A stretch of DNA of 22,423 nt. Origin: a virus. The DNA lies in the IMG/VR virus record IMGVR_UViG_3300027741_000293, positions 1 to 22,423 of that record; one strand, given 5' to 3'. The notes beneath the pieces are model-generated. The model worked only from the letters and a program-made list of their open reading frames with translations. It ran no database searches and was not told the origin of the DNA. Positions 4,112-16,957 of the stretch are shown piece by piece. Within the stretch, counting starts at the first letter, position 1. Each line of letters starts with the position of its first letter. The translations under genes and the position numbers were made by a program.

Positions 4112-4690
4112 ATGGCATCTGCATCTGGAATATATTGTTGGAAACATATCCAAAGCGGTAAACGATATATCGGACAGAGCATTGATGTCTTAAAAAGACT
4201 ATTCTCGCATAAAACGCTTTTGAACAATGGGCGTCATTACAATAATCATTTGCAATATGCCTGGTCTAAATACGGAGAAACATCGTTTGAATTTTCTGTA
4301 ATAGAATATTGCCCGAAAGAAATTCTTGATTGGCGAGAAGCGGAGTGGATTGAAAGTCTTAAATCTATGGATAGCAATTTTGGATACAATCTTGCATCAG
4401 GAGGAAGTAGTGGGAAATGTGTATCTGAAGAAACAAAGAAAAAACAAAGTGAATTAAGAAAAGGCCTTTTGACTGGAATCAGAAATGGAATGTTTGGGAA
4501 AAAACACTCGGAGGAAAGCAAGCGTAAAATTTCTCAAAACCGAAAAGGCATTCCAACTTCTGAAGAAACCAAACGAAAACTATCAGCAAAAGGAAAAGGT
4601 AGAATATTTTCTGAAGAACATAAGAAAAACATGGTGAAGGCTTGGCAATTACGGAAAGCAATTGCATCAAATGCGTTAGAGACTGTATAA
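4112..4690 (+). CDS. Free-standing GIY-YIG homing endonuclease with NUMOD3 repeats
   Basis: 192 residues. The N-terminal GIY-YIG nuclease domain (about residues 4-95) shows G6-I7-Y8, Y19-I20-G21, the catalytic Arg candidate R29, the metal-binding Glu candidate E76 in REAEWIE, and N93 in GYNLASGGS. The C-terminal half carries repeated NUMOD3-type DNA-binding motifs of the form SEE(T/S)K(R/K)K, starting near residues 107, 135, 153 and 168. Enzymes of this family cut a specific DNA site and promote spread of their own gene. It sits between structural genes in the same direction, three bases after the preceding stop, and interrupts no visible reading frame, so it is a free-standing homing gene. 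Its DNA is visibly more A-rich than the genes on either side, which fits acquisition by transfer. All catalytic residues appear present, so it is probably active. Confidence 0.92.
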   Translation: MASASGIYCWKHIQSGKRYIGQSIDVLKRLFSHKTLLNNGRHYNNHLQYAWSKYGETSFEFSVIEYCPKEILDWREAEWIESLKSMDSNFGYNLASGGSSGKCVSEETKKKQSELRKGLLTGIRNGMFGKKHSEESKRKISQNRKGIPTSEETKRKLSAKGKGRIFSEEHKKNMVKAWQLRKAIASNALETV

Positions 4691-4702
4691 ATAAATACCC
4701 CC

Positions 4703-5710
4703 ATGTTATACGACGTCCAATATATTCTGAATGCGATCCGTCCCTATGCAGGGAATAGTGGAACTTGTAATCAGAAGTTGCAACTTGAGTATCTCAACAA
4801 GGCTAGGTCTTTACTTTGGAACAAAACCGATAGTGATGCTACCTGTGAATATGTCTGCATCAAGTGTGTAAATAACCTCCTGACGCTTCCTAGCATCTAC
4901 AAACAGGTCAGGGTGGGGTGGATTGATGGAGTCCCTGTGTCGCTAGGCAACGAGTGGTATCAGGCTGTCCCTCAAGATAACTGGGGCGATGCCGCAAGTG
5001 GTGGATATGGCAATGGCTGGGGGCAAGGATACGCATGGAATGGTGGTAACAAAAAGTTCATTGAGGTTGGGGGAAGACACGTTACCTTCCAGAACTATGA
5101 TGCCTCCCCATACCTGCTGGCAATTGAACCAGAGTCAGCACTTGATGTGGGCAAGGAGATCACATTCTTTGGTGATGATGCCTACGCTACACGCATCAGC
5201 GAGACGATCACATTGGGAGTTGCCCCAAATTTCACTTACTCGGTTAACTTCTTTAAGAGCATCTTCCAATGCACCAAGCCACAAACCAATGGCAGGGTGA
5301 GGGTATATGCCTATGACCCTGATCGTAGCTTGAGATTGCTGCTGGCAGTTTATCAACCTTACGACATCAACCCTTCTTTCCGTAGATACTTTATCCAGGG
5401 CAAGGTTTGTGAGTCGGTAATCCTTTACTGCAAGAAGAACTATCAGGATTTGTATAACCTGACTGATCAGGTTGAGTTCACCCCAGAGGCAATGATCTCT
5501 GCTGTCATGGCAGTTGTCTATCGAGAGAACAAAGGGAGTGACCAGTTGTATGCAACATCCCTCCAGAATGCCATCTTTGAAGTCAATAGGGAGACTGCTG
5601 ATAGGGAGGAACCTACTGGTAGCCCAATTAGGCAGTTCCAAAACAACATGATGTTGAATGCTTTGATACCTACCTACGCATGGGATGATGGTGCGGCATG
5701 GCCTTATTGA
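4703..5710 (+). CDS. Connector / tail-tube-like structural protein
   Basis: 335 residues. The start is ATG 4703 after a short A-rich gap ending in five C residues. Residues ~1-60 are helical with two Cys pairs (ATCEYVCIKC), followed by a Trp/Gly-rich middle (WGDAASGGYGNGWGQGYAW, residues ~93-112), a beta-rich core and a helical C-terminal region (TPEAMISAVMAVVYREN). It lies between tail genes and ejection-type genes, where podophages often encode a gatekeeper/adaptor protein equivalent to T7 gp11. The helix bundle plus beta core would suit that, but the sequence shows no diagnostic motif. Other possibilities are a collar or fibre-anchor protein. Confidence is high that it is a virion gene and low for the exact role. 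Confidence 0.45.
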   Translation: MLYDVQYILNAIRPYAGNSGTCNQKLQLEYLNKARSLLWNKTDSDATCEYVCIKCVNNLLTLPSIYKQVRVGWIDGVPVSLGNEWYQAVPQDNWGDAASGGYGNGWGQGYAWNGGNKKFIEVGGRHVTFQNYDASPYLLAIEPESALDVGKEITFFGDDAYATRISETITLGVAPNFTYSVNFFKSIFQCTKPQTNGRVRVYAYDPDRSLRLLLAVYQPYDINPSFRRYFIQGKVCESVILYCKKNYQDLYNLTDQVEFTPEAMISAVMAVVYRENKGSDQLYATSLQNAIFEVNRETADREEPTGSPIRQFQNNMMLNALIPTYAWDDGAAWPY

Positions 5711-5711
5711 G

Positions 5712-6200
5712 ATGAAAGATTTATCCCAAATCAATGCGATAGATAGGATTGAGCATCAAATTGGTAATGCTCCACAAGTTCAATGCCCCTTAGAACACTT
5801 TTTTACTCCAGAGATTTACACCCGCAAAATTCTTATGCCAGCCGGATCTCTAGTGGTTTCGTTGAAACATAAATCCACACATCCTTTTTTCATTTTGAAG
5901 GGTAAAGTTGCAGTCCTTAAAGTATTAGAAAATGGAGAATTTGAAAGGGAAGCACTTTATGAAGCTGGTGATATGGGAATCACAAGACCGGGAACAAAAC
6001 GATTTCTCTATAACATAGAAGATACCATTTGGGTAACTTGTCATTCAAATCCAGATAACATTGAAGATCCTGATGAAATAGTGTTAGGATTGTCAGAACC
6101 AAACGATAACCCTCTAATTGACTTATCTAGACCAGAATTTAGTATGTGGAAAAAAGATGTAAGCCCTAGCTTGATTCATAAAGAACTACAACTCGCATGA
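5712..6200 (+). CDS. Cupin-fold phage protein
   Basis: 162 residues from ATG 5712, one base after the upstream stop. An in-frame ATG at 5685 would overlap the preceding gene. The central beta-rich region is cupin-like: KILMPAGSLVVSLKHKSTH followed by PFFILKGKVAVLKV (motif 1 region) and YEAGDMGITRPGTKRFLYN (motif 2 region). Of the usual metal ligands, His residues of the KHKSTH segment remain, but the motif-2 His is replaced, so it may be a non-enzymatic structural cupin. Cupin-like proteins of unknown role recur next to internal virion genes in podophages. Its TGA overlaps the next possible ATG by 4 bp (ATGA). Its DNA is more A/T-rich than the upstream connector gene. Confidence 0.6.
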   Translation: MKDLSQINAIDRIEHQIGNAPQVQCPLEHFFTPEIYTRKILMPAGSLVVSLKHKSTHPFFILKGKVAVLKVLENGEFEREALYEAGDMGITRPGTKRFLYNIEDTIWVTCHSNPDNIEDPDEIVLGLSEPNDNPLIDLSRPEFSMWKKDVSPSLIHKELQLA

Positions 6201-7126
6201 GATTTCTAATTCCAGCACAAACAATTTCAGAGCATAGGCATCGTAAGATGCCAGTATTTGAAACATTTGGGTTAAGTGCAACTTCAATTGCATTAATTGG
6301 AGCTGGAACCGCTGCTCTTGGAACCGCTGGAAGTCTTGGGATGCAAGCGTATAATGCCTCCAAGAAAATTCCTGGTTATAATGCTCCATCACCACAAGAT
6401 GTTTCACAGCAACAACAAATGTTGGTTCAAAATGCTGCTTTGGATGCAATGCAATATGCTCCAAAGTTTACCCAACAAAACATTGATTTACAAAATAGGG
6501 TAACCCCCGGATCTTCTGCACAAAGAGAGGAAGCGTTAAAGAAAATCAATTCTTATATCCAAGGAGAAATTCCTCTTGATGTTCAACAGAATATCAATCG
6601 TCAGGTAGCACAGAACCTTGGTGGTGGATTCAACCTTTATTCTGGTGGTGGACAAGCTCCACAAAATTTTGCTCGTAACCTTGGTCAGACAAGCCTTGGG
6701 TTGTCGCAATACGGATTGAGTGCCGCCCCTACATGGCAACAACTTGCTAATACAATGGTTGCTTCGCCAACTCAATTATTTGGTTCAATACTTCAAGCTG
6801 GTGAATTTGCTTCTGGAAATCAAACCCAACAAGCAGAAAATAAATATCAATCTGCAATGAACCAGTATGGAGGCCAGCAAGCCCAAGGACAACAAATTGC
6901 ACAAGGACTTGGTGCTTTAGGGAGTGCTGGTGCTGGTCTTATGCAAGCTGGTCTAATGGCTAATTATTATCACAATCAAGCCGCTCTATCAAATCCACAA
7001 GTTCAAGGGGCGCAAGCAACTTTAGGTCAATTTGGACTTCCAGCTATGTCGGCATCAGGATCTATGTCTCAAGCACAAATGTCTGCTCTATATGGTGGAT
7101 TGTCTGCTGGAGAAACACCTTGGTAA
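6197..7126 (+). CDS. Internal virion / DNA-ejection protein with N-terminal membrane segment
   Basis: 309 residues from ATG 6197, which overlaps the cupin stop as ATGA. A second plausible start is ATG 6248 (MPVFETFG...), which would give 292 residues and a more typical N-terminus. The first part contains a long hydrophobic Ala/Gly stretch (TSIALIGAGTAALGTAGSLG) able to insert in a membrane. The rest is rich in Gln, Ala, Asn and Gly, with repeated helices and a Gly-rich patch (AQNLGGGFNLYSGGGQ). This matches the character of T7 gp14-type internal proteins, which leave the capsid and form part of the channel that carries DNA across the envelope. It is followed by another Ala/Gln-rich gene and the giant protein, in the order expected for a set of three ejection proteins. 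Confidence 0.6.
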   Translation: MRFLIPAQTISEHRHRKMPVFETFGLSATSIALIGAGTAALGTAGSLGMQAYNASKKIPGYNAPSPQDVSQQQQMLVQNAALDAMQYAPKFTQQNIDLQNRVTPGSSAQREEALKKINSYIQGEIPLDVQQNINRQVAQNLGGGFNLYSGGGQAPQNFARNLGQTSLGLSQYGLSAAPTWQQLANTMVASPTQLFGSILQAGEFASGNQTQQAENKYQSAMNQYGGQQAQGQQIAQGLGALGSAGAGLMQAGLMANYYHNQAALSNPQVQGAQATLGQFGLPAMSASGSMSQAQMSALYGGLSAGETPW

Positions 7127-7129
7127 TTT

Positions 7130-8047
7130 ATGGCAATAGGATACTACAACTACTCTCCGTTGATTGCTCAAGGTGAGCAAACCGTTAATCAGCTTGCTGG
7201 TCTTGGCAAGCAGATTGGCAATGCTATCGAGACCCATGCCGCTACGCAGTCTGCACAGGCAATGTTGCCAGTAATCCAACAGCAATATGCAACTGGAATA
7301 GAAAAGGTTGCTCGAGGAGATCAGAGTGGAATGTCAGATGTTATCCAAGCCGCTGGACTAGCAGGACAGAATCCTTTGACTCAACACTTGTCCAATCAAT
7401 TCATTACTGGAATGACTCAAGTTAGTGAAATGGCAAGAACTAAAGAATTGGCTAACGCTAGATTACAGGGGTCTGCATTAAATTACGCAGGGAAACTTTA
7501 CACATCAAATTCCGCAACACAAAGGGCTGGAATGGCTAGACCAGAAACAGGTGGTCAAGCAGCACAAACAAGACAAAAATACAGGGCGGGAGCAATGGCT
7601 TTGTGGAATGGAGATAAAGATGTTAGCGGTGCAAAAGATTTGCTATCTGATTGGGTTACTGGAAAAGACATGGATAAAGCTCAATTGTTTAATCAGAAGC
7701 TCAATCAATATGTCGCCTTCAAGAAAGACTTACCTGGCTTTACCGATCCAAACTTTGAAAACGCCCTTCACGCAAAAGATGCTATATTAAAAGGGGCAGA
7801 TAGAAATGCGGTTCTAAAGCGACTTCAATCAGCGGGGCCATCCAGCCCAACTCAAGCTACTCCCGCCGAGCCTTCTGTTCCCATGCAACAATCTGCTCCA
7901 GCACAAGGAACTCCATCGGGAATCCAGATCAACCCTAATTTCTCCACAGGGGCAATGATTCCAGCAGCAACTACTGCCCCAGAAGAAGCTCCAAGTCCCT
8001 CAAATGTAGTTCAGCAACAACCACAGGAAGAAGAACAGCCTGTTTAA
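7130..8047 (+). CDS. Second internal virion / ejection-type protein, Ala/Gln-rich
   Basis: 305 residues, ATG three bases after the upstream stop and no Shine-Dalgarno sequence. Residues ~1-210 are helical and rich in Ala, Gln and Gly (GEQTVNQLAGLGKQIGNAIE, AAGLAGQNPLTQHL), resembling elongated helical ejection proteins such as T7 gp15. The last ~90 residues are a low-complexity Pro/Gln/Ala/Ser tail (PTQATPAEPSVPMQQSAPAQ, then QQQPQEEEQPV). No catalytic motif or transmembrane helix is seen. It lies directly upstream of the giant protein and would be translated with it. Role is inferred from composition and position. Confidence 0.5.
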   Translation: MAIGYYNYSPLIAQGEQTVNQLAGLGKQIGNAIETHAATQSAQAMLPVIQQQYATGIEKVARGDQSGMSDVIQAAGLAGQNPLTQHLSNQFITGMTQVSEMARTKELANARLQGSALNYAGKLYTSNSATQRAGMARPETGGQAAQTRQKYRAGAMALWNGDKDVSGAKDLLSDWVTGKDMDKAQLFNQKLNQYVAFKKDLPGFTDPNFENALHAKDAILKGADRNAVLKRLQSAGPSSPTQATPAEPSVPMQQSAPAQGTPSGIQINPNFSTGAMIPAATTAPEEAPSPSNVVQQQPQEEEQPV

Positions 8048-8050
8048 CCT

Positions 8051-11000
8051 ATGGGTGATAATCCATTTGCCGATTTAATCCCAAATAATGGGTCATCGGA
8101 AGGGGATGCTTCTCCTTCCCCTACCCCGTTTACTTCTTATAGCATTCCTGCCGCTGTAGGTGGTGCTGATGAGGCGTATGATCCAGATACCGCAAAGGGA
8201 CTAGGAGTAAGGGATATTCGACTCACTCCGGGAGTGGTTGCTGTAAATCCATCAGTCAACCCCTTGGGGACGGTGTTCTTAAACAAAGATACTGGCGAGG
8301 CATATATTGCCGCTGACAGGCATGGGAATAGAAATCCCAATGTAGTTGATATTTACAAAGACCCCACTGATTACAAGGCCGAGTCAGGACACGCCAACTT
8401 TATTCCAATTGACCAGATACCTCTCAATGAGATTCCCAAAAGTCCAGCGGAGTTAAGGAAGCTATTGGCTAATTACGGAAAAGTTCCCGCATCATCTGTT
8501 GCCCATGAGGATCAGAATCCATTTGCTGATTTGATTCCCAATAACAAGAAAGAAGGGGCGATGGAGGAATCTCAACAAGCTCAAGATGGCAATCCGTTTG
8601 CTGATTTGATTCCAAAACCAAAGAGCTACGGAAGCACGATGGAGGAAGACAAGGGCATTGCACCATCTGCTGCTACTAGCTCGTCTATGCCTTGGTATAG
8701 TGCCTTGGGTAGATCTGCCACCGCACAGACTGCCGCTAGTGTTATAAGGCAAGCAGAGGGATTGGAAAGGGCATCTGCCGCTCCGCTTCAATCACTTCCT
8801 CAACTTTCTCCAGAACTAGGGCCGGGAATTGGGGGAACTACCGCTGAAGCAAATGCTGTTTTTGATAAAGCCATTTCTGATAGGCAATCTGCATTAACGT
8901 CCCTGCAAAACACTATCTCCAAAAGAGGCTTTACTACAGCGGATGATACAATGCGTATCAAAGCAATTAAAGATGAGATCTCAAAAATACAATCCCAAAA
9001 GCCAATAGCATTAGCATCACAAGAATATACTCCAGAATCTCAACAGCAGCTATTACAAAGAAGGCAAGAAGCATCTAAAACTGCCGCTGGATTAGAACAA
9101 AAGGCTCAAGGGATGTTCCCTGTTTTAGGAGTAAGCCCAACTGACACATCTGTTGCCGCTGGCATTGGTCGAGGAGTTGGAAACATTGTATCAATGGTTC
9201 CAGAAATGCTTACAGGGCCACTTGCCTTACCCTTGACTGGGTTGGCAATGGGCAGCCAAGCATACGCTGAAGGTTACAACAACAAGGCGGAGGAACTTAA
9301 AAAGCAAGGCGTAACTGATCCAAATGTTATTGAGAAACAAGCCCATGCATCCGCAAGTCAAGAGGCAGTAAAGACAGTCCCGCAATTAGCCGCCTATATG
9401 GTGGGGGGTAAATTAACATCTGATGCTGTAGCGGCTTTGATGAAAGGGGCTGCTCCTGCCGCAAAGGGTATCGTTGGAGGAACTGCTGCCGCTGGAGCAA
9501 ATGTGATCACATCAGCGGGATTGAGGGGATTAGAGGGTCAACCTATTACCCCCACCCCTGAAGGTTTGACTCAAGACATTTTGTTTGGAGCGTTTCATGG
9601 ACTAGGAACTGGATTGCAAGCTAGGTCAGATGCAAAGAAAGCCGCTGACGCACAACTTGGTGGAAAAGAACCTCAAGTTGCTCCATCTAGCATTCCCAAT
9701 GTCAATGAAAAGGAAGCCATCATTACTGCCAAAGCAGATGATTTACATGAGACTCCTGCCCCTGTAATCAACATTCCCGCCGCAACTCCAGAAGAGTTGG
9801 CTAAAGTTGGAGAGGCTCCGATTACGCCAGAGACTCCTGCTCCAGAAGATAAGACCCAAAAGATCGCTGATCTCTCTATTGAGCAATTGGAGCATGAGCC
9901 AGGGTCAGCGGAGCATACAGCAATTCAACAACAGATTGATGAGTTACAGAAACCCGCTGAAGCTCCTATAGCTGAAGCACAACCAGAAACACCAAATGCC
10001 GTTCAAGAGCAAACAACAGGAGAAGTGGGCGTTCGCAACGCACCAGCCGTGGGCGAAGGAGTGGGCGGACAAAACAAAGCAGAAGTCCCTGCCACGCAAG
10101 GTGAAGAAAAGCCAAAAGAAGAAGTAACTCCTTTTAGCAAAAGAGACTTTTCAGAAGATCTAAATCAGTCTTTTAATAAAAAAGATGCTAAAGGTCGTCC
10201 TGTTCTTCTTGAAAATTCAGAAGTAGAAAAAATGTCAGAGGAACAAAGAGCCATGCGATTTATGGTTCTTTCTGATTCAATAAGCAGGGGATCAAAAGAT
10301 CCAGTAGTATTCGCAAACCTTGCCAAGTTATATCAAGAGTCCAAAAGACTTGGAGAAGTAAAAGAAATACCAAGCATAGAGGAATACATTTCTGGTAAAA
10401 AACCTATTGAAATAACAGCGGAAGAAGTAAAACCACAGCCAAAGAATCTCCCCGCCACAGGCCAGGAAGTCAAAGAAGAGGTAACTACTCCAGCTTCTTT
10501 AGAAGAAGCTAAAACTCCAGAAGAAGTAGATGCCTTTGTAAAAAAACAAAGAGCAATTTTACCATTAAACTTTAGAGATAAAGAAACTCTTGGCAAAAGG
10601 CTAAAAGCTCTTGGAATGCAAGCCGCCGCAAAGAAGCGTCAGCTTACTGGCAATCTTACCGCTAAAGAAGCCGCCGCTAAAGCCAAGAAAGAAGAATCTA
10701 ATTATATCGGAAAGCCTGTTTCTGTTGATGGAAGAAATGGCACAATAATCGGAAATCCTTTTGGAAGAGTAAAAGTTCGATTTGAAGATGGAAATGAATC
10801 AACCCATCTTCCAGAAAAGATTGAATCTCCAGTAGAGGCAAAGCCAGAATCAAAACCTACTGAAGAAGTAACTCAACCAGAGTTGCCAGAAATTGTAAAA
10901 TGGGCAGATAAGACCATTAAAGAAGGTCAAAAAAGGTTAAATACAGGTTTAGATCCAGAGTTGCTTTTTGCTTATGCAGTAAAATCTGCTCACTTTTTGG

Positions 11001-14000
11001 GCGTAAGAACAAATGATTTTGCCAGATGGTCAAAACAAATGGTGAAAGAATATGGAGAGCGAATTCAACCATACCTTGAAACCATTTGGGGAAGAGTTCG
11101 CCAACACGCATCAGGTGAATACAATCTGATTGACGATCCATTTTGGAAAAAGAATTCTGGAAAACCAGAGGAAGGAGAAGAAGCATATACTCCAAGCAAG
11201 ATTGCATGGAGTGATGCGGCAAGAGATATGTTTGGGATTAGGATTCATCCTTCTGAATTACCTTCCTTTAATGATGTCCACAAAATTTCCAAATGGCCCG
11301 AACCATTAAGGGATTTAGCAACAGTTAATGATGTAAGCTATCAGCTAAACAAAGAAACTGATGTAGCTGGAAATGAAATTTTAGACATTGCTACAACACC
11401 AATGGAAGAGGAAAGTGGAACTTTTGCTGAAAAGTTGGGTGACTTTGGTGGTGCTTCATTTAGAAACAGATTGCGTAGGGACATTCAAAAAAGAAATGAT
11501 GCAATTGAAAGAATAAAAGAAAAGACAAAGGGTCTTTATACTGATGAAGAAATTCTTGAAAAGGCATCTGAATTACCTCATGCGGGAAGAATTTATGCAG
11601 AAGATATATCCGCAAGGGCAAAAGAAAGCAGATCCCGGCTTGAAACTTGGGCTGATAATACAATCAAAGAATCTAGAAAGCGTCTTAATGTCGGACTAGA
11701 TCCAGAGGTCTTATCTGCATACGCAGTCAAGGGTGCTTTCAAGATTGCCCGTGGTGTTCGTGACTTTACCGCTTGGTCAAAGGAGATGTTGTCTGAATTT
11801 GGTGATGCAATTCGACCCCACTTGGAGGATCTCTGGAATCGTGCAAACCAATTGCACAACGAGGAAGCAGCTAAATACGGCCCCAAACCTCCTAGCGAAA
11901 GGGAAGTCTATGCAAAGCGAGTAGAGGAACAGCTCTCCAAGGTTTATGGTCGCAATCCTACCGCTGAAGAAGTGGGGAAATATGTAGATAAGAAGTTCCC
12001 GAAAGCTGAAGTTCCCGCTCCTGTTGCTACTCCTGCTACTGAAGGTCAACCAATCCAATTTGGAACATCAAGGGCGACCCAAGAAGAAATGCTAAAATCT
12101 GGCATTGGGCAAGGGGCAGTTCCATCTATTGAGCCAATGACTCGTAATGAGATGATCCAACAAGGGAAGGATGCCATCTCAAAAGGAGCAGACCCAGAAG
12201 AAGCGTTGAGCAAAATTCAGTCTGCTGAAGTTGATAAAAACTCAATGATAGCTAGGGCGCATATTGAAACTCTTGCGTCTAATGCGTATGAGGCATTGCG
12301 AAAATTTGGAGCAAATTCAGAGGAATACAAAGAAGCAAACAGAATATATAACGAATATAATGATCGTTATCAGCAAAATGTTTCTAGCGTTGCTGGTAGA
12401 ACATTGGGTCAGCAAGCATTTAGAACAGAATTAAAGATGGACAATGCTTTTGACTTTCAAAGGCAATTCAATGAAGACACAAAAGGCTCTGATTTAAGTG
12501 CGTCTCAATTGGACAAAGCATCCAAACTTGCCAAAGAAAACACCAAGGCAAATGAAGAAACTCAAAAGGCTCAAGATAATCTAGAAAAAATCAGGGATGA
12601 AGGGTTTTCTGATGTTGATGTTGAGACCCCGGAGTCAGTTGATGAAGCTCGTCAAAAAGTTGCTGATCTTTCAGATCCCGATAAGGCAAAACAGAAAGCT
12701 GAAATTGATCAACTCAATCAAGAAAATGAACAGATCAAGAACAGGCTTGAAGAGGCAAATCAAAGGCTATCTGAATCTTCAGAATCTTTGCGTGATAGGC
12801 TTAAAAAAGAAAATGAAGAGCTACGCAATCAATTAGAAGAAGCTAAAAAAGAAGATCCACTTGTTAAGCGTGTGATTGATGCTCTTGCAAAAGGCTATGA
12901 AAGCCAGATGCAAAAGGCACTTGAGAGAATCAGGCAGCGCAACAAGGAAGGTCGTTTAATGACTGGATTGAATCCAGCGGATCTTGCCGATCATGTAATT
13001 GTTGGTTCCTATCATATTACAAAGGGAGCTAGGGATTTTACAAAATGGTCAGCAGAAGTTGTTAAAACTATAGGTGAAAATGTTAAGCCATATCTTGAAC
13101 AAATATGGAATGAATCTTGGAAGCAGATTGATAAAGATTTGGCAGGATCAAAAGACCCCGGAGCAACCAAGGCTCGATCAGAAATCAAGAAGGTTAAAGC
13201 CAAAGCCAAGCGAGTTTCTAAAATGTCCCCAGAGGAAAAGCGGGCAAACAACATTCGCAAACGGATTGAACGCAATCAACAAATCATTGATGACATTAAC
13301 AATGGTAAGATTTCTAGTCCCAAAGATGTTCAAAAAGTTACCAATGAAGAGATTCGTGGTCTTGAAGATCAGTTAAAACAAGTTCAGGAGCAATTAAAAG
13401 AAGCCAAGCTAAAAGAAAAAAAGGTGCTTCAATTTGGTGGCAAAATAACTGACAAGCTAAATCCAGAACAAGCAAAGACAATTTGGGAAACGGCAAAGAA
13501 GTTTTACATACCTAGAATGACAAAAGATGCATTCTATGATGAACATAGATTGATTGCCGATATTGCTGATGACTTTGGATTGACTCCAAACCAAGTAAGA
13601 GAAGCGTTCTCTATGCCAAGGGGGGCAAGAAAAGCATCCAACGATCTCTACCAACAACAACAAAAAAGAAAACAGGTTCTTGATAATTCAAGAAGGTGGC
13701 TGATTGACCAAAGTGCCAGCGCAATTGGGAAAATTGCAGGGAAGGCCGCTGAATCAGCGTTTAAATTGTCCGTTCTTGGTCACGGGACGGCATTCATAAC
13801 AACTCATGCTCTTCCGCTTTGGGCTACTAATCCCATTATGGGAACAAAGGCTTTCTTGAGGGCAATGAGATACACATTTACAGGTAAAAATGGGAGAACT
13901 CAATGGATTATTGATAACCATAACATTGTAAATCATCCTGATTACGAGTGGGCAATGAAAGGCGGGGCAGATGTCAATCCGTTTAGATACGGAACAGAAA

Positions 14001-15067
14001 AGCCGCAAAGATCAAATCCTGACAGCTTGCTTGCAAAAGCTCTTGATCCAATTACTGGAGGAAGAGGGTTTGATGCATTGCATTGGATGAGGATGGAGTA
14101 TTTCTCAAAGTATTGGAGAAAACTTTCACCAGCACTTCAGAATGAAGAAATGGCAAAAGTTATTGGAGATGCCGCAAATACAGCTACCGGATATGCGGAA
14201 TCAAAACTTGGATCTCATCCACTTGTTCGTCTTGCTTTGTTTGCCCCCAAATTATACAAGTCCCAATTCAAATGGCTTGTTGGAGACCCGGCAAAAATGC
14301 TTGGGACAGCAGCTAGAATGGCTGTGGGAAAAGATGTTTCTCCTGCTGACGCTTGGCAAGCAAGGCATGAAGCTGTCAATAAGGTTAAATTTATTGGGAT
14401 GTATGCGGGATTACTTGGATTGAATCAAGCGATTCTTTCAGCAACTGGAAGCAATGCACAAGTAAACTTTACCGATCCTAAAAAACACGATTGGCTTGCA
14501 TTCAAAACAAGCGATGGTTCATTTAATCCTTTGCACCCGTTTCTTTCAATTGGAAGGCTTTTGGCAAAAGAGACACATGATTTGTTTAGTGACTATATTC
14601 CATCGGTTTTGGGCCAGAAGACGGCTTTGGAGAAATCCCCAGGAAACAATGTAAAGCTCGCCTTACATGATTTGGGGGATTATGCGTTTGGAAAGTTAAG
14701 CCCAATTGCTAGAGATATTGCAGTTGTGGTGAATCAAAGAGACTTTACTGGAAATGCAGTTCCTTGGTCATCAGTTGCCCCGCTTCGTGGTAAAGAAAAA
14801 CTTACTTGGCCTCAATTTTTGGCTGAAATGTTTTCCCCGATTCCTTTTGCAGAAGCATCTACTCAAAAGGATTGGGCATCTGCTGGAGCAGCGGAAAAAC
14901 TCGGATCTGCGTTGCTTTTTGGCGTTCCTTATACAACGAAAGAAGATGAGGAAAGATGGGAAGCATCACACAAATCCAAAGCAAAGCCCTCTGGCGGATC
15001 TGGAGGATTTGGAGCTAGAGCATTCAAGCCAATGGATAGTGCTTTTAAGGGGTTTAAGGAAAAATAA
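8051..15067 (+). CDS. Giant 2338-residue internal virion protein, polyvalent-type, with N-terminal 3D/lytic domain
   Basis: One uninterrupted frame from ATG 8051, three bases after the preceding stop, to TAA 15065-15067. Visible parts in order: an NPFADLIP motif at residues 4-11, with further copies at 156-163 and 181-188; a 3D/double-psi barrel-like domain (~45-115; GVVAVNPSVNPLGTVFL, with D89 and D100 as candidate acidic catalytic residues); hydrophobic Ala/Gly stretches (~370-400 and ~445-490); acidic linkers (~560-880); an SH3/KOW-like segment (~884-925; GKPVSVDGRNGTIIG); and three copies of a ~70-residue module (951-1018, 1200-1267, 1623-1692). Between modules two and three is a helical segment (~1350-1480) of a kind common in phage polyvalent proteins. 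Coiled coils lie at ~1490-1620 and ~1732-1791. A large C-terminal region (~1904-2310) ends in a Gly-rich tail. The likely role is ejection with the phage DNA and local peptidoglycan cutting, as for T7 gp16, with extra domains that may act in the host cell. The ejection role is inferred. Confidence 0.7.
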   Translation: MGDNPFADLIPNNGSSEGDASPSPTPFTSYSIPAAVGGADEAYDPDTAKGLGVRDIRLTPGVVAVNPSVNPLGTVFLNKDTGEAYIAADRHGNRNPNVVDIYKDPTDYKAESGHANFIPIDQIPLNEIPKSPAELRKLLANYGKVPASSVAHEDQNPFADLIPNNKKEGAMEESQQAQDGNPFADLIPKPKSYGSTMEEDKGIAPSAATSSSMPWYSALGRSATAQTAASVIRQAEGLERASAAPLQSLPQLSPELGPGIGGTTAEANAVFDKAISDRQSALTSLQNTISKRGFTTADDTMRIKAIKDEISKIQSQKPIALASQEYTPESQQQLLQRRQEASKTAAGLEQKAQGMFPVLGVSPTDTSVAAGIGRGVGNIVSMVPEMLTGPLALPLTGLAMGSQAYAEGYNNKAEELKKQGVTDPNVIEKQAHASASQEAVKTVPQLAAYMVGGKLTSDAVAALMKGAAPAAKGIVGGTAAAGANVITSAGLRGLEGQPITPTPEGLTQDILFGAFHGLGTGLQARSDAKKAADAQLGGKEPQVAPSSIPNVNEKEAIITAKADDLHETPAPVINIPAATPEELAKVGEAPITPETPAPEDKTQKIADLSIEQLEHEPGSAEHTAIQQQIDELQKPAEAPIAEAQPETPNAVQEQTTGEVGVRNAPAVGEGVGGQNKAEVPATQGEEKPKEEVTPFSKRDFSEDLNQSFNKKDAKGRPVLLENSEVEKMSEEQRAMRFMVLSDSISRGSKDPVVFANLAKLYQESKRLGEVKEIPSIEEYISGKKPIEITAEEVKPQPKNLPATGQEVKEEVTTPASLEEAKTPEEVDAFVKKQRAILPLNFRDKETLGKRLKALGMQAAAKKRQLTGNLTAKEAAAKAKKEESNYIGKPVSVDGRNGTIIGNPFGRVKVRFEDGNESTHLPEKIESPVEAKPESKPTEEVTQPELPEIVKWADKTIKEGQKRLNTGLDPELLFAYAVKSAHFLGVRTNDFARWSKQMVKEYGERIQPYLETIWGRVRQHASGEYNLIDDPFWKKNSGKPEEGEEAYTPSKIAWSDAARDMFGIRIHPSELPSFNDVHKISKWPEPLRDLATVNDVSYQLNKETDVAGNEILDIATTPMEEESGTFAEKLGDFGGASFRNRLRRDIQKRNDAIERIKEKTKGLYTDEEILEKASELPHAGRIYAEDISARAKESRSRLETWADNTIKESRKRLNVGLDPEVLSAYAVKGAFKIARGVRDFTAWSKEMLSEFGDAIRPHLEDLWNRANQLHNEEAAKYGPKPPSEREVYAKRVEEQLSKVYGRNPTAEEVGKYVDKKFPKAEVPAPVATPATEGQPIQFGTSRATQEEMLKSGIGQGAVPSIEPMTRNEMIQQGKDAISKGADPEEALSKIQSAEVDKNSMIARAHIETLASNAYEALRKFGANSEEYKEANRIYNEYNDRYQQNVSSVAGRTLGQQAFRTELKMDNAFDFQRQFNEDTKGSDLSASQLDKASKLAKENTKANEETQKAQDNLEKIRDEGFSDVDVETPESVDEARQKVADLSDPDKAKQKAEIDQLNQENEQIKNRLEEANQRLSESSESLRDRLKKENEELRNQLEEAKKEDPLVKRVIDALAKGYESQMQKALERIRQRNKEGRLMTGLNPADLADHVIVGSYHITKGARDFTKWSAEVVKTIGENVKPYLEQIWNESWKQIDKDLAGSKDPGATKARSEIKKVKAKAKRVSKMSPEEKRANNIRKRIERNQQIIDDINNGKISSPKDVQKVTNEEIRGLEDQLKQVQEQLKEAKLKEKKVLQFGGKITDKLNPEQAKTIWETAKKFYIPRMTKDAFYDEHRLIADIADDFGLTPNQVREAFSMPRGARKASNDLYQQQQKRKQVLDNSRRWLIDQSASAIGKIAGKAAESAFKLSVLGHGTAFITTHALPLWATNPIMGTKAFLRAMRYTFTGKNGRTQWIIDNHNIVNHPDYEWAMKGGADVNPFRYGTEKPQRSNPDSLLAKALDPITGGRGFDALHWMRMEYFSKYWRKLSPALQNEEMAKVIGDAANTATGYAESKLGSHPLVRLALFAPKLYKSQFKWLVGDPAKMLGTAARMAVGKDVSPADAWQARHEAVNKVKFIGMYAGLLGLNQAILSATGSNAQVNFTDPKKHDWLAFKTSDGSFNPLHPFLSIGRLLAKETHDLFSDYIPSVLGQKTALEKSPGNNVKLALHDLGDYAFGKLSPIARDIAVVVNQRDFTGNAVPWSSVAPLRGKEKLTWPQFLAEMFSPIPFAEASTQKDWASAGAAEKLGSALLFGVPYTTKEDEERWEASHKSKAKPSGGSGGFGARAFKPMDSAFKGFKEK
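8060..8083 (+). repeat. NPFADLIP motif, copy 1
   Basis: Encodes residues 4-11 of the giant protein, immediately after the start codon. Copies 2 and 3 encode the identical eight residues with only a few synonymous base changes. Confidence 0.85.
8516..8539 (+). repeat. NPFADLIP motif, copy 2
   Basis: Encodes residues 156-163 of the giant protein, after the 3D-like domain. It is followed by asparagines, as is copy 1 (NPFADLIPNN in both), which shows that the repeat extends slightly past the core. Confidence 0.85.
8591..8614 (+). repeat. NPFADLIP motif, copy 3
   Basis: Encodes residues 181-188, only 17 residues after copy 2. It is preceded by Gly and followed by KPK instead of NN. The short spacing suggests a local duplication of a linker plus motif. 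Confidence 0.85.
10901..11104 (+). repeat. ~70-residue module, copy A (in giant protein)
   Basis: Residues 951-1018 run from WADKTIKE to the end of IWGRVRQ. The shared pattern is a basic helix, then (N/M)(T/V)GL(D/N)P, a small hydrophobic helix, R(T/V)NDF or RDF, then WS and PYLETIW. Copies A and B are the closest pair. Confidence 0.85.
11648..11851 (+). repeat. ~70-residue module, copy B (in giant protein)
   Basis: Residues 1200-1267. It begins WADNTIKESRKRLNVGLDPE and ends LEDLWNRANQ, and is nearly co-linear with copy A without gaps. It is separated from copy A by about 180 residues of unrelated acidic and helical sequence. Confidence 0.85.
12917..13126 (+). repeat. ~70-residue module, copy C (in giant protein)
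   Basis: Residues 1623-1692, more diverged at the start (the W is lost) but keeping MTGLNPADLADHVIVGSYHI, GARDFTKWSAEVVK and VKPYLEQIW. It follows a long coiled coil. Confidence 0.8.
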
Positions 15068-15424: not shown

Positions 15425-16957
15425 GTGGCTACCTTCCTCAACATGGGGCGGTATGGGGACATCGTATCGTTCCTGCCTGTCCTAAAGAATGAGTTTGATA
15501 CAACGGGTAAGAAGCCTAGCCTAGTTGTTGCCAAGGACTTTGCAGACATCTTGGATGGGGTTAGCTATGTTGAGCCTATAGTCTATGATGGAGCATTTGA
15601 TGACATCACAGGGGCATTAGAATATCTCAAGACCCGAAATGAAACGGCAACTGCAACCCAAGTTGTCGGCATCCCTGATGTTTTAGTTGGTCAGGTTTAT
15701 GGAAAGCATCATGGCCCCCAAATCATCTGTGACTCATTCCAACAAGATGCCTGGAGGCTCGCAGGGAAGCTAGACCTATGGCCTAGCCAACCTCCGCTGG
15801 TGTTTGATCGACGAGACAAGAAACGAGAAGAGGAACTCATCAAGGAAATCCCCAAGAACAAGCCTTGGATTGTTGTCTCAACTGGTGGGACATCCTCACC
15901 CTTCCAGTATTCTGACTTGCTGTGGGAGATTCTAAACCATTCCTTTCCAGAGTTCCACATCGTTGATCTGGGAAAGATCAAGGCTGAAAGGTTCTACGAC
16001 TTGCTTGGCATCATGGATCATCCAAATACCCATGCGATGATCCTGACCGATAGTGGGCCGCTACATCTCTCATACGCCACACAGAAGCCTGTTCATGCCC
16101 TTGTGACGGATTCCCCCTATTCATGGCATGGAGCTGCGTGGAGGCCATCCTACGCATCCTATATACGGTATAAGAACTTCCCACGGGATGTGACTAGGAT
16201 CTTGGGGTTGATTCGGGGAACTATTCCATTACCTCCCATTACCAACCCTGACATCATCCATGTCTATTGCAGGATTCCAGATGCAGTTGGGTATGAGAAG
16301 AAGAGGAACGACCTCGCCAAAAAGACTTGGGATAAAATCGGGTGGGTGGATTGCGGGTTGGATGACAACTGTTTTGTAAGACACGCTGGAAATGTCATAC
16401 CCAAGCAGACCAGATACATTCCGCTTATCAAGGAGATGATCAGGCTTGCCTGTTGTGGCAGGAAGGATAGCGACATCGTGGTCATTACCAATACCGACAT
16501 CTGTGTCTCTACGAACATCGTGGAGAAGATCAGGGCAGGGTTGCCAGCGTATGCCTTTCGACATGACTACCGGGTTCTAGATGAGATCATCCCTGATTCA
16601 GAAATCGCTGGAGATAAATACCCTGGGTGTGACTTGTTTGCAATGTCGGTTGGATGGTGGAGGAGAAACCATCACCTCTACCCTGACATGGTGATAGGAC
16701 GGCATTCTTGGGATCGCATCATGCGAGAGCTATTCAAGTTGGCTAAAGGCAGGGAGATTGAGAGGGGCATCTACCATCAGAGACATCCCTCTGGTTGGGA
16801 AAACCCTGTTGCCTTGAATACAGATCTCTGCAACCTACGCAACGCAAGGCTTGCAAGGGAGTGGTTGACTGAACGGAATATCCCCTTGGAGGAGCTAGAG
16901 GATCTGAACTACGAGGGAAAGTTCAAGCGTCCTGACTTTAGCAAGCTGAAGGTTTGA
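15425..16957 (+). CDS. Two-domain glycosyltransferase: GT9-like N-terminus plus GT-A-like C-terminus
   Basis: 510 residues. GTG 15425 is chosen because the first beta strand (ATFLNMGRYGDIVSFLPVL) would lose its N-terminal half if the ATG at 15443 were used. Residues ~1-265 resemble family GT9 (ADP-heptose:LPS heptosyltransferase fold): the Gly-rich GRYGDIV loop at 8-14, VVSTGGTSS for the second Rossmann domain, and DSGPLHLSYATQKPVHALV from residue 209. Residues ~270-510 form a second domain with IVVITNTDICVS (N356-T357-D358, at a place where GT-A enzymes carry a DxD motif), then CDLFAMSVGWWRRN and IGRHSWDRIM. Such enzymes transfer sugars to a phage or host acceptor. Placement at the end of the virion block suggests modification of a virion protein or of host surface glycans. 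The GT9 call is fairly secure, the second less so. Its 3' end overlaps a leftward gene by 20 bp. Confidence 0.7.
   Translation: MATFLNMGRYGDIVSFLPVLKNEFDTTGKKPSLVVAKDFADILDGVSYVEPIVYDGAFDDITGALEYLKTRNETATATQVVGIPDVLVGQVYGKHHGPQIICDSFQQDAWRLAGKLDLWPSQPPLVFDRRDKKREEELIKEIPKNKPWIVVSTGGTSSPFQYSDLLWEILNHSFPEFHIVDLGKIKAERFYDLLGIMDHPNTHAMILTDSGPLHLSYATQKPVHALVTDSPYSWHGAAWRPSYASYIRYKNFPRDVTRILGLIRGTIPLPPITNPDIIHVYCRIPDAVGYEKKRNDLAKKTWDKIGWVDCGLDDNCFVRHAGNVIPKQTRYIPLIKEMIRLACCGRKDSDIVVITNTDICVSTNIVEKIRAGLPAYAFRHDYRVLDEIIPDSEIAGDKYPGCDLFAMSVGWWRRNHHLYPDMVIGRHSWDRIMRELFKLAKGREIERGIYHQRHPSGWENPVALNTDLCNLRNARLAREWLTERNIPLEELEDLNYEGKFKRPDFSKLKV

Follow-up and report, generated by a model that had tools for sequence, protein, structure and literature searches.

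A repeated N-terminal motif around a probable wall-cutting domain in a predicted phage ejection protein

The 22.4 kb IMG/VR virus fragment examined here (IMGVR_UViG_3300027741_000293, 22,423 nucleotides, hereafter the window) contains a single open frame of 7 kb for a protein of 2338 residues. It raises two questions: what so large a protein does in infection, and why the peptide NPFADLIP occurs three times at its N-terminus. The first-pass annotation of this DNA had proposed an ejection-type protein that joins a lytic domain with early host-takeover functions, and had listed the NPFADLIP triplet without building on it. The triplet is the most unusual part of the protein.

Gene order around the reading frame

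The reading frame is intact from its ATG (8051) to its stop (15067), exactly as annotated, and orthologues with the same gene order are found in virus contigs L002, L003, L006, L007, L008, L018, L019 and L020. Four further contigs (L010, L014, L046 and L016) have the N-terminal part alone in common with it. The gene is the third after gp7-like and gp20-like ejection genes and adjoins tail genes, which is the position of gp16 (Table 1). The fibre/cupin-like gene upstream is homologous to the gene found at the same place in Shewanella phage ZP9 (6.6e-17) and in DSL-LC05 (3.1e-14), and what comes next is alike in the window, ZP9 and DSL-LC05: the first ejection gene, the second, and a gene for a motif-bearing protein. 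The first of these genes is labelled 'DNA transfer protein' in DSL-LC05 and the third 'putative DNA transfer protein', and the third proteins of DSL-LC05 and ZP9 start with MAENPFAQF...DNPFAQF and MANPFDQFD...NPFDQFD, respectively; the ZP9 protein is WOZ57828.1. This shared arrangement indicates that the window frame comes from a short-tailed phage and is its third ejection gene. Gene order and relatives give good support to the ejection-type assignment, and the protein would presumably be packaged in the virion. A tblastn search of phage records with the whole protein, and with its C-terminus, gave no match.

Two neighbouring genes are also of note. A GIY-YIG homing endonuclease with NUMOD3 motifs is encoded inside the virion gene cluster (window 4112-4690) and is also present in L003 and L008. 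The ejection gene is followed by a 510-aa gene (15425-16957), about 62-74% conserved in relatives; from a weak match of heptosyltransferase type, it may be that the virion operon includes a glycosyltransferase.

Table 1 Features of the ejection locus, with positions in the window
Feature	Residues	Position	Strand	Basis or remark
Short tail fibre/cupin-like gene, synteny anchor		5685..6200	+	phrog_12032 1e-22
First ejection gene, gp7/gp14 position		6197..7126	+	conserved in relatives; position as in DSL-LC05
Second ejection gene, gp20/gp15 position		7130..8047	+	gene order
2338-aa frame, third gene of ejection trio, polyvalent-type protein		8051..15067	+	ORF list, orthologues, synteny
NPFADLIP copy 1	4-11	8060..8083	+	exact string
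3D-family (YuiC/MltA-like) domain, between motif copies 1 and 2	27-125	8129..8425	+	profiles
Asn66, at place of 3D aspartate 1 (YuiC D129), substituted	66	8246..8248	+	alignment
Asp89, at place of YuiC D151/MltA D297 (substrate contact)	89	8315..8317	+	alignment
Asp100, at place of catalytic YuiC D162/MltA D308	100	8348..8350	+	alignment
NPFADLIP copy 2	156-163	8516..8539	+	exact string
NPFADLIP copy 3	181-188	8591..8614	+	exact string
Gly/Ala-rich hydrophobic helical region, candidate membrane-active segment	373-530	9167..9640	+	hydropathy maxima 379, 446, 473; conserved in relatives; putative role
SH3/KOW-like beta segment	886-927	10706..10831	+	conserved in L003, L006, L020
Module 1	953-1023	10907..11119	+	profile match; opens the block that is 84% identical in L006
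Exchangeable cassette between modules 1 and 2	1028-1185	11132..11605	+	84% identical in L006 versus 30-45% outside
Module 2	1202-1272	11654..11866	+	phrog_938 6.7e-15, phrog_10089 DarB-like 1.8e-14
Probable coiled coil	1536-1620	12656..12910	+	generic coiled-coil matches
Module 3	1626-1700	12926..13150	+	profile match
Conserved C-terminal region	1760-2310	13328..14980	+	37-90% identical in relatives; part shared with DarB-like polyvalent protein

The repeated motif and the domain between its copies

All three NPFADLIP copies are exact, and none of 100 shuffles came near this result. The 11 relatives checked all carry three N-terminal copies of one motif, the version of which is specific to the protein (NPFADLIP, DPFADLIP, DPFADLPN, EDALAFLG, GLFDDLLG, NVYAQFLE or LPAGFELE), and in each of the 11 the observed similarity between copies was reached by 0 of 100 shuffles. 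The nucleotide differences between the three window copies are synonymous only, which argues that selection acts on the motif peptide. In the window family the motif version covaries with the C-terminal half of the gp20-like ejection protein encoded upstream: L015 and L020 have a near-identical gp20-like start, after which both the gp20-like sequence and the motif version switch. We do not take this covariation as proof of contact, because the two genes adjoin on the DNA and linkage alone could explain it. The protein of L016 (9896-16285) has an LPAGFEL-type motif three times at its N-terminus and again as its last residues (PAGFDLV), and the C-terminus encoded in L006 (11800-11902) ends in three PFGLKSS-like copies, of which shorter likenesses close the proteins of L018 and the window.

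When viral contigs were scanned for [DN]PFADLIP, 45 stretches came up, and the counts rest on the 39 true contigs analysed. The first copy lies within 60 residues of the ORF start in 34 of the 39 (two of these 34 being fragments cut at the 5' side), a Met is present within 12 residues upstream in 29, and two or more copies are found in 19. The permuted control [DN]PLADFIP returned 25 stretches, mostly of one unrelated family with the match near the C-terminus; no repeats were seen among them, and the match was near the ORF start only in two very short ORFs. The behaviour of NPFDQFD was predicted beforehand from the [DN]PFADLIP result and the scan was then performed, giving at least 120 stretches, 80 of which were analysed. 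Here the motif lies within 60 residues of the ORF start in 77/80, with a nearby Met in 72/80 and two or more exact copies in 40/80, and the bodies of the carriers fall in 16 clusters. In both scans most carriers are large ORFs with unrelated bodies and the motif at the N-terminus. Four of the 80 NPFDQFD stretches belong to a separate nuclease-like family; in L133, L138, L149 and L154 a nuclease-like protein starts with NPFDQFDIEHLSASSIN, the same peptide in a probably unrelated family. Phage proteins of L015 (7981-9528), L157 and L165 that differ elsewhere have in common, behind the N-terminal motif, a domain of the form RPVVKNxDGSISTVRS...VLIPTVSDDGR.

The bodies of two NPFDQFD proteins had no match to a named phage, and the motif is absent from the ejection proteins of a Microcystis phage and of C72C1, and is thus not universal. 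Our literature search, with most subscription journals outside its scope, did not find these strings as a phage motif. The best reading of NPFADLIP is a docking or targeting motif of ejection proteins. A broader proposal, to which we give slightly less than even odds, is that tailed phages share an undescribed family of repeated N-terminal motifs ([DN]-P-[FY]-x-[DQ]-[LF] and variants), which would mark unrelated ejection proteins to be loaded, or docked on one shared partner in the virion, lysins being placed between the copies.

Residues 27-125 are very likely homologous to 3D domains. Pfam 3D (PF06725) was the sole Pfam family matched, at 13.4 bits and so below its gathering score of 23.8, and hhalign against canonical 3D domains gave a probability of 97.1% at 33% identity, a loose value, as are the other hhalign values, since the alignments contain very few sequences. 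YuiC aligned in register with the profile of the seven-member family, with a poor E-value (0.26). When the divergent L016 copy was compared with phage records by tblastn, it matched annotated 3D, peptidase and YocH proteins (best 6e-5), and one further protein that is unannotated. The VAVNPxxxPLG block of the window domain matches the 3D family. Two of the three 3D aspartates are invariant, including the one at the catalytic position, and the first is Asn66 in all family copies; the D89-D100 spacing equals that of D151 and D162 in YuiC, where D162 is catalytic and D151 binds substrate (PMC4499186). We consider it likely, though less so than the homology, that the domain is catalytically active. 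An AF2 model of residues 1-580 had a mean pLDDT of 42.8 (about 26-48 over the 3D domain), too low for fold searches. What had been annotated as a 3D/double-psi-barrel-like stretch is supported by profiles. A protein of the same 3D subfamily, with a signal-like N-terminus, is encoded in a Bacteriovorax stolpii MAG (L021:8354-9811).

The window, L003, L008, L010, L014, L015, L016 and L046 have the 3D domain between the first and the second motif copy. In L018 the same slot is occupied by a PF01832 glucosaminidase (7e-9, above gathering score), which is unrelated to 3D, and the stretch between the motif copies of L102 has, by eye, a GH73-like look. L053 and L028 have a lysozyme ahead of two motif copies, followed in L053 by an ejection-protein-like body, and in L002, L006 and L020 the slot is empty, with no lysin there. 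That one slot is occupied by unrelated wall-cutting domains is the strongest indirect indication of an action of the 3D domain on the wall, where it probably cuts the glycan strands of peptidoglycan. The cell-wall-cutting function suggested by the first-pass annotation is in this way backed by profiles and by the replacement in L018, both AlphaFold runs being too poor to contribute.

We find it unlikely that the slot domain is not an active wall-cutter and is instead a degenerate 3D domain limited to binding glycan or peptide, or a DNA/CTP-binding ParB-like fold of the kind common in polyvalent proteins. Such a domain would account for Asn66 in place of the first of the three defining aspartates, and for the match of the seven-sequence profile to the ParB-family protein Noc (7.7e-5, without gaps across about 100 positions), which is stronger than its match to YuiC and is accompanied by an hhalign probability of 92% for Noc alone. 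However, this probability drops to 33% against a small ParB alignment, whereas the 3D profile scores better and the aspartate spacing and the VAVNPxxxPLG block match as well. The annotated phage matches are all 3D, peptidase or cell-wall proteins, the N-terminus of the Bacteriovorax homologue resembles a secretion signal, and L018 has its glucosaminidase in the same slot.

As for the motifs, the gain or loss of domains between copies, in proteins that are mosaic, could suggest that they have no binding role and serve as points of recombination in the DNA, or as neutral repeats of a linker at which domains exchange. We regard this as improbable, since selection on the peptide is indicated by the synonymous differences, each protein repeats its own peptide with peptides differing between proteins, and on many bodies that are unrelated the first copy immediately follows the start codon. 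We also doubt that the motifs act in the infected cell or its envelope, where they would bind a host protein of the periplasm, membrane or cytoplasm as ejection proceeds. Close relatives do have different motif versions and yet similar adaptor (about 80% identity) and stabilisation genes (74-78%), as for host-specific contacts, but the version changes together with the C-terminal half of the ejection protein encoded upstream. This is consistent with a partner in the virion, though neighbouring genes could move together.

Modules, cassettes and the C-terminal region

By sequence comparison the window protein is a mosaic. The 84% identity to L006 is restricted to module 1, the cassette and module 2 (residues 945-1262), and the identity of about 90% to L002 is restricted to residues 1801-2300. 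The three repeated modules recognised earlier are real, as all three match the profile of relatives and the second also matches PHROGs, one DarB-like (1.8e-14) and one labelled 'endolysin' (6.7e-15). No solved structural relative of the module was found, and the cassette has no PHROG match. The SH3-like segment is likewise conserved in relatives, with no library match confirming its fold, and for the two coiled coils of the earlier description we obtained weak generic coiled-coil matches.

The DarB-like MTase-helicase protein of L009 shares the module and part of the C-terminus with the window protein, which thereby has domains in common with known polyvalent proteins, as it also does through the DarB-like PHROG. 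This part of the proposed polyvalent link holds; the swapped cassettes of relatives are weakly or not confirmed as ParB- or acetyltransferase-like. Those in L003, L007 and L010 had that appearance by eye and were set aside as unconfirmed or weak (ParB-like at 0.033 in L007). LPD38 (PF18857) reached 12.9 bits in P0004, short of its gathering score of 27, and E 0.0085 in one of eight relatives, and an AlphaFold model of residues 1590-2338 had a mean pLDDT of 47.6, too low for fold searches. The 3D domain is the one probable enzymatic domain recognised in the window chain. No effector domain or host-takeover enzyme was recognised in residues 190-2338, and the early host-takeover functions proposed for the same chain find no support in the window copy. 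That polyvalent proteins are packaged and injected had been called established, which is too strong: for the majority of these proteins, Iyer et al. 2017 (PMC5512222) present it as a prediction.

Proposed working and comparison with known systems

We propose, with a probability of about 0.6, that the window protein is the third and largest ejection protein, at the gp16 position, carried inside the head and passed through the tail when the phage infects, with three docking motifs around a probable wall-cutting 3D domain, swapped middle cassettes and a C-terminus at the inner membrane or in the cytoplasm. The N-terminus would be flexible, and its motif array probably binds repeated sites on a virion partner, which may be the scaffold or the tunnel protein encoded just upstream. 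This binding would serve to load the protein, to keep the lysin at the tunnel, or both. After ejection the wall would be opened by the 3D domain, by analogy. The middle is built of cassettes that are exchanged between helical modules recurring in the chain. The hydrophobic regions and the conserved helical C-terminus would, also by analogy, reach the inner membrane and cytoplasm, and the C-terminus probably acts at one or the other. There are precedents for several of these steps: in P22 a scaffold mutant in the N-loop loses gp16, so that the scaffold is a precedent for a docking site (PMC12005531), in T7 a gp16 'molecular tape' beside the lytic domain cements the tunnel protein gp15 (PMC8954989), and in T4 a peptide of ten residues at the N-terminus can be enough to load a protein into the head (PMC9026906).

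The window protein has in common with T7 and P22 gp16 its place as third gene of the ejection trio and its hydrophobic helical regions, and with T7 gp16 alone a probable lytic domain at the N-terminus together with a likeness to the 'tape', an extended segment by which T7 gp16 cements the tunnel protein next to it (PMC8954989). The likeness lies in these features; the window protein is nearly twice the size, with a 3D domain where T7 has a transglycosylase, a motif array bracketing the lysin and swappable middle cassettes. With polyvalent proteins (DarB-like, LPD38; Iyer et al. 2017) it shares module 2 and part of the C-terminus, both found in the DarB-like MTase-helicase protein, and the mosaic architecture, as well as, probably, a peptidoglycan-cutting domain, a known theme of the class; unlike them, the window copy is without a recognised effector enzyme. 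Iyer et al. (PMC5512222) describe lysozyme, PF07486 and DD-peptidase domains, and use neither the term '3D domain' nor mention an N-terminal short motif.

The window domain shares with the 3D Sps/MltA family (YuiC, MltA) the VAxxPxxxPLG block and two aspartates at the right spacing, with the catalytic position kept, but has Asn for the first aspartate and 'HGN' for 'TGGA', and by sequence would form a separate subfamily. The motif resembles the T4 capsid targeting sequence (CTS) in being a short N-terminal peptide on otherwise unrelated proteins, which in T4 are head-packaged. The T4 sequence is single and is removed by gp21, whereas the window-type motif is present in two or three copies with no cleavage known.

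Two aspects of this architecture bear on phage biology. One slot is filled by wall-cutting domains of unrelated families, and the repeated N-terminal motif is the part likely to surprise the specialist. The choice and positioning of ejection proteins in the phage head are largely unresolved outside T4, and the repeated N-terminal peptide is a concrete, mutable candidate for their selection. It would also be a sequence flag for ejected proteins among the many phage genes that have no assigned function, and it might serve as a handle by which cargo is loaded into phages.
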